Shown piece by piece: positions 14,781 through 17,578 of a stretch of DNA of 64,000 nt. Origin of the DNA: Candidatus Koribacter versatilis Ellin345 (lineage in GTDB: Bacteria; Acidobacteriota; Terriglobia; Terriglobales; Acidobacteriaceae); contig NC_008009.1 of the NCBI RefSeq assembly GCF_000014005.1, positions 4,712,001 through 4,776,000 of the forward strand, read 5' to 3'. How positions within the stretch are numbered: the first letter of the stretch is position 1; the number at the start of each line of letters is the position of its first letter. Position numbers and translations under genes: made by a program. The notes below the pieces were generated by a model. It saw nothing but the letters and a program-made list of their open reading frames with translations, was not told where the DNA came from and searched no databases.

Positions 14781-15197
14781 TCAGTAGGTTAACCAGGCAA
14801 CATCGGATGCAGGATGCTGGCGCTGCAGTTCACGCAAGTAGGTGACAATCTGCCACCGCTGCTGCTCGGGCAGCGAGCTCCAGGAAGGCATACCGTTCCA
14901 CAGGCTGCCATTACGCAACAGCCATTGCAGTTCTCCGTCGCTTGCGCGACGCACCCGGGCGGAGACGAGCGCCGGTTTACCGTGCTGCCCCGCACCTTCC
15001 TTGCCGTGACATTCGGCACAATGTTCCTGGAAGAGTTTTTCACCAGCCCGCACCGCGTCGGGCGAAGTGGCGAACGGGTTGGCGCGGCCGCGGTCCTTGT
15101 CTGGAACATGCGAGAGCCATTTACCGTCGCCGACGTAGGCAAAGCAAAGCAATGAAGTGATCAGTAAGAATGCAGTAAGAAAAATTCGTGAACGCAT
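14781..15197 (-). CDS. Secreted c-type cytochrome (monoheme)
   Basis: A 138-residue exported electron carrier. An N-terminal signal peptide (about 1-20) is followed by one heme-binding motif CAECH in GEKLFQEHCAECHGKEG, and a distal Met ligand candidate in GSLWNGMPSW, as in class-I cytochromes. The start lies 2 bp after the stop of the beta-barrel-like gene, so the two are co-transcribed. Probable periplasmic redox partner of an unidentified enzyme. Confidence 0.85.
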   Translation of the reverse strand: MRSRIFLTAFLLITSLLCFAYVGDGKWLSHVPDKDRGRANPFATSPDAVRAGEKLFQEHCAECHGKEGAGQHGKPALVSARVRRASDGELQWLLRNGSLWNGMPSWSSLPEQQRWQIVTYLRELQRQHPASDVAWLTY

Positions 15198-15199
15198 GA

Positions 15200-16045
15200 T
15201 TAATGGCTCCGGTGGAAGACCTGTCCCAGTTCATAGCTGACGCCGAGGCGCATCATGAAGCCGACACTCTTGTCGTTGAGTCCGAATGTGGGTGAGATCT
15301 TCACGGTGGGACCGTTTGGCACCGCCCATTGCACGATGGGGGCAAAGTACTGCGATGTATCGTGCAGGCCAGCTGAGTAACGGTCTCCCAGACCGCCATA
15401 CATTTCCCCGCCAAGCGCAAAGCGCTCGCGACAGAAGCTGCATGGGCTCGACGAAGCCGTCAGTGCCAGCGGGCGGCTGAGTCCGACGGCGTAACCGAAT
15501 TCCCACGGCTCGTTGGAAAGATTCTTCGTCATGATCAGGTTTTCGGAGAGGTTCCATCCTTTGAAATTGCTGGACAGGATGAGCTTGGTCTCGAGTTCGT
15601 GCTTCCGCTCGCTACGGTCCGTGCGCTCGGTGACGTCATCAATGCCGTCATGGCCTTCGATCTCCAGCAGCGATTTGTCGGCGCTGTTGACGTTTTCGAA
15701 CTCGACGTAGATCACCGGGTTGATCCAGTGTTCACGCATCAAGGGACGGAAACGGTTCTCCCAGCGCCAGCCAGTGAACACGGTAGCTTCATCCACCGTG
15801 GACTGTCCGGAGAGATAGAGCTCGGTCGTCCACCAGGCTTTGGCCCCATATTCGAGTTCGAGCGTGTTGGAGAGGAACCCATTGCCGCCGGCAGGCGTCC
15901 CGCCGATGGTTTTGTTTTCGATCTCGAAGTTTCCGGGTTCCTCGAGTTGATGAGAATAAGTGACGAAGTAAGTCTCTTGCGCGCGCAGGGAGAGCGCAAA
16001 CAGAAGGAGTACACAAAAAGAAAGGGTCGAACGAAGCACGGCCAT
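15200..16045 (-). CDS. Outer-membrane beta-barrel-like protein, unknown
   Basis: About 281 residues with a signal peptide ending near LRAQ, then alternating amphipathic strands rich in Tyr/Trp/Glu (for example TLELEYGAKAWWTTELYLSG, INPVIYVEFENVN, VGFMMRLGVSYELG), typical of outer-membrane barrels. A CSFC pair sits in a predicted loop near SSSPCSFCRERF and could bind a metal or form a disulfide. The ATG at 16045 has AGGA close upstream and is preferred over the GTG at 16057. First gene of an operon with the cytochrome; its promoter region contains the 29-bp palindrome. I do not recognise a named family. Confidence 0.65.
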   Translation of the reverse strand: MAVLRSTLSFCVLLLFALSLRAQETYFVTYSHQLEEPGNFEIENKTIGGTPAGGNGFLSNTLELEYGAKAWWTTELYLSGQSTVDEATVFTGWRWENRFRPLMREHWINPVIYVEFENVNSADKSLLEIEGHDGIDDVTERTDRSERKHELETKLILSSNFKGWNLSENLIMTKNLSNEPWEFGYAVGLSRPLALTASSSPCSFCRERFALGGEMYGGLGDRYSAGLHDTSQYFAPIVQWAVPNGPTVKISPTFGLNDKSVGFMMRLGVSYELGQVFHRSH

Positions 16046-16065
16046 ATTCCTAACCACCGTAGTAA

Positions 16066-16094
16066 TTGAAAATGAAATTCAATTTCATTTTCAA
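16066..16094. promoter_or_regulatory. 29-bp perfect palindrome, Fur-box-like operator
   Basis: Two 14-bp arms (ttgaaaatgaaatt and aatttcattttcaa) flank a single C with no mismatch. Read as hexamers it is GAAAAT GAAATT C AATTTC ATTTTC, close to the GATAAT-repeat form of a Fur box. It lies between the divergent barrel/cytochrome operon and exbD, and starts 21 bp upstream of the barrel ATG, so a repressor bound here could block that promoter. Fur identity is inference. Confidence 0.7.
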
Positions 16095-16253
16095 CTTGGC
16101 CAGAATACGGGAACGCCCCTCGCCCGGCAATCACACATTCGTCCAATGGCTAACCTTCGTACCCCAAATGGGAAATCCGACCCTGAACTGCGCTCGGGAG
16201 CAACTCGCGCAAGCCCGGTGTCTAAGCATGGAAAGCAATTGAGGAGACCAACG

Positions 16254-16688
16254 ATGGCAATGCTTCCAAGCAACTCCAATAGCCCCAAAGCCGAAATGAA
16301 CGTCACGCCGCTCATCGACGTATTGCTCGTCTTGCTGATTATTTACATGGTGATAACGCCGCTGAATTCGCAGGGTTTAAAGGCCTTGATCCCCCAGCCG
16401 ACGCAACCCAATTCCCCTGCCGCGCCGCATGAGAATGACGCCGTCGTGGTGCAGGTGCTTGCCGGGAACGGCGATACTTTGCTGAAAATCAACAATGAAA
16501 GTGTCACTTGGGAAGGGCTGGAACCGCGACTCAAGGCGATCTTCGCGCCTCGTGTCGAACGCGTGGTTTTCGTAAAAGGCGATGCAAGCGTTGAGTTCGA
16601 ACAAGTCGCGCGAGTGGTCAGTCTCGCGCACAGCGCGGGAATCGATCACGTTGGGTTGCTGACGGCGAAGGTTGAGTCGGCGCGCTAG
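16254..16688 (+). CDS. ExbD/TolR-family biopolymer transport protein (lone)
   Basis: A 144-residue inner-membrane protein of the ExbD/TolR family, which with an ExbB/TolQ partner uses proton flow to energise TonB or Tol. Motif EMNVTPLIDVLLVLLIIYMV contains the single TM helix and the essential Asp22. The periplasmic domain has VFVKGDASVEFEQVARVV. The ATG at 16254 is preferred because GAGGAG precedes it; the longer frame lacks a site. No exbB or tonB gene is nearby. It is divergent from the palindrome-controlled operon and its stop overlaps the convergent gene. Confidence 0.88.
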   Translation: MAMLPSNSNSPKAEMNVTPLIDVLLVLLIIYMVITPLNSQGLKALIPQPTQPNSPAAPHENDAVVVQVLAGNGDTLLKINNESVTWEGLEPRLKAIFAPRVERVVFVKGDASVEFEQVARVVSLAHSAGIDHVGLLTAKVESAR

Positions 16689-17578
16689 CGCTTCGGCATC
16701 AACGCGCCGAGCGGCGGATACGATGTTGGCGTGGTGAAGCTGCGCTCGAGCGGTTGCGACTTCAAGTCAATCGCTTTGGCGAGCATTTCGATTGCCTGGC
16801 CTGCATTCGGCGGAATGACAACGGTAGCGGCGAGGAGCCCGCGTCGGACCCAAGCCTGGCCAGTGTTCGGCATTCCGTCGCACCCGATATACGGCAAACT
16901 GAGCCAATTATCGCGGTTGGAATGTTCTTCGAAGGCCTTGCGGGCGCCGAGTGCCATGGAGTCATCCTGCGCGGCGACGAGCCCAATGCCGAGGTCCTTG
17001 GCGATGGCGAGACGGAGCCACGAATTGACCGCCTGCGTTGCGCTCTGCTCGGTCCACTGCGCCTTCATAGCGCGGATCTGGATGTTGGCCGGCTTGGTTT
17101 CCATCATGCCGTTGGTGCGTTGTTGCGCCGCATCGCTTCCCGACGGTCCCTGGATATAAAGCGCGGTGCCACCTTGCGGCAGGAGCGCCGCCATCTGGCG
17201 ACCCTGGATGCGGCCCACATCTTCGTGATTCGTGCTGATCGCGAACGACGGGACCTGGAACGAGCGACGCAGATCGCTGAGATAGTCCACTTCGCGATTG
17301 AGTACGACCCATCCGATGCCAGCCTGGGCTGAGGCCCGCGCAACCTGCGCGAGGGCTGTGCCGACGGGTTCGAAAATGACGGCATCCGGACGATGCTCGA
17401 CAGGCGCCTGAACACATTTCAGGATCTGCTGGCTCTGGTTCGAAGGATCGTTTTGTGCGTCAAGGATCAAGAGTTCGGCGCCGAGCCGGCGAGCAGCTTC
17501 CTGGGCGGCGGTTGCCTGCTCGATCTGGTAGTCATTGTCTCGGGTAGTGAGGGAGAGGACGATGTTGAGCTTCTTCAT
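16685..17578 (-). CDS. Sugar-binding-protein-like protein lacking a signal peptide
   Basis: Periplasmic-binding-protein type I fold (Peripla_BP_4/RbsB-like), 297 residues. It opens directly with MKKLNIVLSLTTRDNDYQIEQ, which is beta strand 1, so there is no signal peptide or lipobox and it should be cytoplasmic. Ligand-site-like motifs: VIFEPVGTAL, WVVLNRE, ALYIQGPSGSDAAQQR, GLVAAQDDSMALGA. It has no DNA-binding domain and no ABC genes beside it. Its stop codon overlaps that of exbD through CTAG. It may be a cytosolic ligand sensor. Confidence 0.75.
   Translation of the reverse strand: MKKLNIVLSLTTRDNDYQIEQATAAQEAARRLGAELLILDAQNDPSNQSQQILKCVQAPVEHRPDAVIFEPVGTALAQVARASAQAGIGWVVLNREVDYLSDLRRSFQVPSFAISTNHEDVGRIQGRQMAALLPQGGTALYIQGPSGSDAAQQRTNGMMETKPANIQIRAMKAQWTEQSATQAVNSWLRLAIAKDLGIGLVAAQDDSMALGARKAFEEHSNRDNWLSLPYIGCDGMPNTGQAWVRRGLLAATVVIPPNAGQAIEMLAKAIDLKSQPLERSFTTPTSYPPLGALMPKR

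Follow-up and report, generated by a model that had tools for sequence, protein, structure and literature searches.

Between two divergent genes of Candidatus Koribacter versatilis Ellin345, one for a predicted outer-membrane barrel followed by a cytochrome c gene and the other for an ExbD protein, lies a perfect 29-bp palindrome. The locus is part of a stretch of 64,000 nucleotides (NC_008009.1, positions 4,712,001 to 4,776,000), called the window here, and it raises the question of which genes the palindrome controls, what may read it and what process these genes serve. The earlier note on this DNA had taken the palindrome for a Fur box and the three proteins for one metal- or heme-linked envelope system. 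Judged by its sequence, the palindrome is an ordinary Fur-type operator upstream of a two-gene barrel-cytochrome operon, and this operon is unnamed. We favour, with moderate confidence, the reading that the operon is the iron-repressed outer-membrane and electron-transfer arm of an FTR1-type iron uptake. This reading is carried by the operator itself, its recurrence before FTR1 and, more weakly, FeoB, the conservation of the gene pair and the matching of operator types between the barrel operon and FTR1. The features of the locus are as follows, in window positions.

16066..16094, no strand: 29-bp perfect palindrome, putative Fur-type operator, core GAAAAT GAAATT C AATTTC ATTTTC
15200..16045, minus strand: outer-membrane beta-barrel, 12 strands predicted, AlphaFold2 mean pLDDT 84
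14781..15197, minus strand: secreted monoheme cytochrome c (CAECH, Met103), Pfam Cytochrome_CBB3 6.5e-16
16102..16107, minus strand: possible -10 (TATTCT), 17 bp from a possible -35 (TTGCCG, 16125-16130)
16254..16688, plus strand: ExbD/TolR-like protein, Pfam ExbD 3.4e-20, judged a neighbour outside the system

Operator types at the barrel operon and FTR1

The palindrome (TTGAAAATGAAATTCAATTTCATTTTCAA) has arms of 14 bp on either side of one central base and lies between the divergent genes as first described. It is real and far beyond chance. Among perfect palindromes with a spacer of 0 or 1 it is the longest in the window, the runner-up having arms of 9 bp, and the longest arm across 100 first-order Markov windows did not exceed 11 bp. 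The 29-mer occurs once in the genome of 5,650,368 bp when up to 3 mismatches are allowed. Its distance is 20 bp to the barrel start and 159 bp to the likely ExbD start (16254). Like a Fur box it is a palindrome of hexamer repeats, found near FTR1, FeoB and barrel-operon promoters, and it fits 14 of the 19 positions of GATAATGATAATCATTATC, the Fur-box consensus. It differs in its hexamers, GAAAAT and GAAATT, and in that other lineages replace the site by TTGCAA-N5-TTGCAA or by GAC-N7-GTC (Rrf2-type).

The Fur-type assignment made in the earlier note was upheld by further boxes of the same type, found in the genome by degenerate searches. One precedes FTR1 (2251740; 1/21 mismatches), one a barrel-like gene (393155; named by eye, no family found) and a weaker one FeoB (3595842; 5/21 mismatches), while a near match at 3633721 has neighbours that by eye are not iron genes. 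In G143, G233 and G047 the barrel operon and FTR1 each have a Fur-type box before them, and in G008 so do the barrel, FTR1 (5/21 mismatches) and FeoB. G233 has a further box before a homologue of the barrel-like gene; one G143 box (on C10) has no clear iron gene adjoining. The barrel-like protein itself, second in the genome to stand behind a Fur-type box (G000:C1 393155; L058:4336-5145, minus strand), belongs to no Pfam or NCBIfam family, and it has a look-alike in G233 (C10 937259, L165).

The operator was then counted in 300 bp upstream of the barrel at 81 loci, namely the window and 80 named loci, which are the best 80 of 201 relatives and overlap partly with the class genomes that bear G numbers. 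Three box types were enriched over 2457 control windows: the Fur-type box (13/81 against 0), TTGCAA-N5-TTGCAA (31/81 against 3) and GACTNANTNAGTC, a GAC-N7-GTC pattern of Rrf2/IscR-like type (21/81 against 4), an enrichment which is partly by construction, since the three patterns had come from an inspection of 40 regions of this kind, many of them of the same genomes. The expectation that relatives with the same genes carry the same site held for 12 of the 80, including 11 of the 12 closest, and failed for the other 68, of which 42 carry one of the two other boxes. As a side observation, G208 has two tandem TTGCAA-N5-TTGCAA boxes (C35 6296 and 6367; L159) before a gene that by eye is TonB-receptor-like.

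The FTR1 promoters are a test independent of the choice of patterns. For this comparison 60 of the 72 barrel genomes of the class were used, after dropping 11 with matches of about 30% identity or fragments and G072, whose barrel is split over contigs. Also left unused were the FTR1 fragments in three genomes (G136, G019, G074) and the second matches in three others (G044, G058, G000), so that 47 promoters of FTR1 remained and both promoters could be compared in 46 genomes. The box types of barrel and FTR1 agreed in 25 of these 46 genomes against a mean of 12.1 in shuffles, and none of 10,000 shuffles reached 25. When each genus was represented by a single genome, 8.5 of 19 agreed against 2.9 in shuffles, of which a fraction of 0.0002 reached 8.5. 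Where barrel and FTR1 both have a box (28 genomes), the types agree in 25. All six genomes that combine a Fur-type barrel box with a compared FTR1, from six genera, have a Fur-type box at FTR1 too; the seventh with such a barrel box, G019, had only the FTR1 fragment and was left uncompared. Control windows downstream of FTR1 contained the three boxes in 1, 1 and 0 of 235 cases. The agreement of the box types makes shared regulation of the barrel operon and FTR1 well supported at the sequence level, and a single iron regulon seems to be governed by three types of regulator in the same bacterial class.

Candidate promoters were sought in a subset of box sites, 24 at barrels and 20 at FTR1. Immediately before the box, a -35 and a -10 element separated by 16-18 bp scored better than 95% of shuffles at 18 of the 20 FTR1 sites, but at just 6 of the 24 barrel sites. 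In the window, TTGCCG-17-TATTCT has 8/12 matches, a weak pair since 11% of shuffles are equally good, and a stricter sigma-70 scan gave no match at the barrel promoter. If the candidate promoters are real, the box would lie at or after the transcription start, a common position for repressor sites.

The barrel and its partner cytochrome

The barrel gene more likely begins at ATG 16045 (a correction read from the sequence), and the cytochrome gene begins 2 bp past its stop; the two are separate open reading frames and unfused. Pfam, AlphaFold2 and the open reading frames bore out a barrel with a CxxC motif and a monoheme cytochrome c, as the first description had it. No family match was obtained for the barrel in Pfam or NCBIfam, and among 29 barrel members a single weak match to Pfam PF13557 (Phenol_MetA_deg; E 0.008) was found. 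A sequence-profile search of solved chains with the barrel returned chance-level matches only and no relative, and 72,556 plasmid records contained none. By fold, the predicted structure matched FapF (Z 21.1, over 210 residues with root mean square deviation 2.4), a COG4313 channel (Z 19.6) and KdgM (Z 19.2). With these it has a 12-strand fold in common, while it differs from them by an identity of 14% or less, the lack of a Pfam family, an iron-type operator and the paired cytochrome. The barrel does not look like a TonB-dependent receptor, as no plug or receptor Pfam family was found and 12 strands are predicted rather than 22. C202 and C205 of the CxxC motif are kept in at least 90% of the 29 barrel sequences, and the turn between strands 8 and 9 that holds them would be periplasmic if the strands of the model are counted from a periplasmic N-terminus. 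In the cytochrome, M103 is present in 72 of 78 aligned relatives, a set chosen by the CxxCH motif in which heme-motif counts hold by construction.

Of 250 genomes in the window's class, 72 have a barrel match, and in 61, counting the genome of the window itself, the match is close. All 80 relatives have a cytochrome match downstream of their barrel, at a distance of no more than 1.5 kb in 79. Beyond these two genes the neighbourhood is not conserved, the widest other cluster being found in just 12 of 40 loci. By title, one of the 80 belongs to Chthoniobacterales and the others are acidobacterial. This one (L144) has a barrel at 55% identity and its cytochrome match 2.5 kb off, which points to transfer or wrong binning. 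Five of the 80 loci have a di-heme cytochrome after the operon. In L096, L104, L106, L116 and L143 (also L074 and L075) a protein of about 570 aa with two CxxCH motifs is encoded downstream of the cytochrome; it has a lipobox-like N-terminus, stays below Pfam cut-offs and weakly resembles a di-heme enzyme in PDB. A literature search for the operon or for an Acidobacteria Fur regulon met no description among titles and the starts of abstracts. No sign of a heme or copper role turned up, with no separate search aimed at either.

There is a different explanation, which we consider unlikely though worth weighing: the operon would belong to the iron regulon and import no iron, and respiration or envelope redox would be remodelled when Fe-S enzymes fail. 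Such a role would also explain control by Rrf2, an Fe-S sensor, whose type of box is found in 21 of 81 loci, and it suits a cytochrome that resembles cbb3/CcoP-type c domains and is followed by the di-heme cytochrome in 5 of 80 loci. It does not account for boxes of the same type at FTR1 and of Fur type at FeoB (respiratory genes were outside the box scan), and a conserved outer-membrane barrel would be unexpected in a purely respiratory module.

Candidate regulators and the ExbD neighbour

Two Fur-family genes are encoded in the genome. The one at 3995009 (minus strand; Pfam FUR 5.5e-32) has as its closest solved chains proteins named ferric uptake regulation protein (6.2e-29), and by sequence its product is the natural candidate reader of the window palindrome. 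Upstream of the barrel, at no more than 0.9 kb, 16 of the 80 relatives have a Fur-family gene (Pfam FUR, one a partial match). None of these 16 loci has a Fur-type or GACT box. The adjacent Fur-family gene was tried as reader of the TTGCAA box, and this link was not borne out, as the box (up to 1 mismatch) is about equally frequent with the gene (7/16) and without it (24/64).

The presence of two Fur-family genes, and the general resemblance of Fur-family boxes to one another, might mean that another sensor of the family (for zinc, manganese, nickel or peroxide) reads the box and that the operon handles that metal; TTGCAA-N5-TTGCAA is like the nickel (Nur) and manganese (Mur) boxes. We regard this as improbable, for the same boxes stand before FTR1 and FeoB, which are iron transporters by family, and the product of 3995009 is closest to the solved ferric uptake regulation proteins named above.

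The third box type of the relatives fits the core palindrome GAC-N7-GTC of RisR, which belongs to the Rrf2 group IS6; Acidobacteria are listed in that group (PMC9973013). In the same paper RisR controls isc and suf, while the boxes of the relatives precede the barrel-cytochrome operon, FTR1 and, in g23, an Rrf2 gene. In each of five g23 genomes, one Rrf2 gene, with three spaced cysteines, has its own GACT-N5-AGTC box (0-1 mismatches), and in the three of these loci that were read further an IscS-like gene follows it. The other 14 of the 19 Rrf2 loci read have no such box (0-1 mismatches), including all of G091, G236, G191, G197 and G103, and the barrel promoters of G091, G236, G191 and G197 do carry a box of GAC-N7-GTC type. 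From these sequences an Rrf2 reader of the third box is supported in g23 and is assumed in the other genomes.

The ExbD gene begins more likely at ATG 16254, behind GAGGAG, than at 16146 (a correction read from the sequence). No ExbB gene adjoins it, its flanks being a periplasmic-binding-protein-like gene and the barrel; the rest of the genome was not searched for ExbB. The flanking gene (16685-17578, minus strand) encodes a Peripla_BP_4 protein with no obvious signal peptide by eye, and its stop overlaps the ExbD stop by 4 bp. No ExbD turned up close to the barrel, either in the 80 relatives (E <= 1e-4; flanks reaching at most 6 kb, and less on some contigs) or in 59 further loci of the operator comparison. 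The closest relative, L078 (70% identity), retains the neighbouring genes for the binding protein and the peptidase. Its Fur box, barrel and cytochrome are intact, but at the place of ExbD there is no more than a short C-terminal piece that is ExbD-like, AGIDSVGLLSVKVDSG against AGIDHVGLLTAKVESA. The lack of an ExbD in the flanks of the 80 relatives together with this remnant makes it look like a dispensable neighbour, and it was rejected as a member of the system; the co-control with barrel and cytochrome proposed in the earlier note did not stand. One energised system of ExbD, barrel and cytochrome, which the divergent genes with a single palindrome between them had suggested, is accordingly very improbable, given also the 159 bp from the box to the likely ExbD start and a 12-strand barrel with none of the TonB-receptor families.

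The FTR1 operon and the proposed route of iron

The reading of the barrel-cytochrome operon as an arm of FTR1-type iron uptake was compared with the distribution and composition of the FTR1 genes. FTR1 presence was counted in the 61 genomes with a close barrel and in 60 of the 178 barrel-less genomes. It was found in 50/61 (including one below-cut-off match, G074, and some fragments) against 29/60 (Fisher 1.2e-4, possibly inflated by relatedness), and in 40/48 against 22/47 when only well-completed genomes were taken. In the present genome FTR1 is fused to an FtrD/DUF2318 domain, and genes for two FtsX permeases and one ATPase come after it. No P19 or thioredoxin was recognised by eye among the open reading frames of this operon stretch; the rest of the genome was not searched. 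The ATPase of the operon (G000:C1 about 2246868-2248094; L059:869-2095, minus strand) carries a fused PF02742 metal-binding/dimerisation domain (6.2e-26). This fusion with an iron-dependent-repressor domain may represent an iron-sensing transporter ATPase.

The FTR1-P19-DUF2318-FtsX-FtsX-ATPase system of C. jejuni (1649-1656) has a Fur box before its genes, and in its model (PMC6083913) the outer-membrane step is by an unidentified receptor and iron reduction is assigned to thioredoxins. FTR1, DUF2318/FtrD, both FtsX and the ATPase of that system are all matched in the FTR1 operon here. The two differ in that P19 and thioredoxins belong to the system of PMC6083913, while none was recognised in the stretch read here, whose ATPase bears the iron-dependent-repressor domain; moreover, that system is reported to lack a known outer-membrane component, and here a barrel-cytochrome operon stands under shared control. 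FtrABCD (PMC11966278) is a ferrous iron transporter which is predicted to draw energy from the oxidation of Fe2+, and the redox part studied in it is the cupredoxin FtrB. It resembles the FTR1 operon of the genome in its FtrD and in a permease of the FTR1 family that goes with the predicted oxidation of Fe2+. The difference lies in the redox part, a cupredoxin in PMC11966278 and a c-type cytochrome as the candidate here. A cytochrome c-FTR1 fusion in print was looked for as support, was not found and is not used.

Two other systems join an outer-membrane barrel to a c-type cytochrome as the window pair does, Cyc2 and MtrAB. Cyc2 is one fused chain and MtrA is multiheme, while the window pair consists of two chains with one heme.

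Control shared with FTR1, under whichever regulator, points to iron acquisition. The mechanism that we propose has several steps, among which Fur binding, the iron response, transport and electron flow are inferred. When iron is plentiful, Fur would sit on the palindrome and block the barrel-cytochrome operon, and when iron is scarce the operon would be made together with the FTR1 permease that bears the same operator. The barrel would serve as a TonB-independent outer-membrane channel for iron, probably Fe2+. We propose iron passage for the barrel and electron transfer for the cytochrome in view of the redox steps of the other systems and of the absence of a recognised P19 or thioredoxin in the stretch read. 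The partner of the periplasmic cytochrome c in this transfer may be iron itself or the FtrD/DUF2318 domain of the FTR1 fusion, and the cytochrome would then do what copper proteins or thioredoxins do in related systems. Electrons could flow either way, in an oxidation for FTR1 or in a reduction of Fe3+.

Several observations weigh against this proposal. FTR1 was not found in 11 of the 61 barrel genomes (some of them incomplete drafts) and is present in 29 of the 60 barrel-less ones, so that neither barrel nor FTR1 needs the other, and among the loci read FTR1 was not met inside a barrel operon. None of the three boxes is present upstream of the barrel in 26 of 80 loci and 20 of 60 genomes, or upstream of FTR1 in 16 of 47 cases, and three genomes boxed on both sides (G119, G178 and G199) disagree in type. 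The agreement of types was corrected for relatedness by the one-per-genus sampling only, which is a partial correction. The promoter of the window barrel is weak in both scans. The best structural match of the barrel, FapF, is a polypeptide exporter, and the fold leaves ion passage unproven.

For Acidobacteria as a group we put forward, tentatively and as something less than an even expectation, an unnamed TonB-independent outer-membrane arm of FTR1 uptake, built of a barrel of 12 strands, with its CxxC on the periplasmic side, and of a cytochrome c partner which would handle the electrons of iron entry. Its targets would have been kept while the regulator was exchanged at least twice, among Fur, the reader of TTGCAA-N5-TTGCAA and an Rrf2 Fe-S sensor. 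For other systems, copper proteins or thioredoxins have been proposed in the place that the cytochrome takes here. For the passage of iron across the outer membrane towards FTR1-type permeases PMC6083913 draws an unidentified receptor, and the barrel-cytochrome operon offers a concrete candidate for this step.

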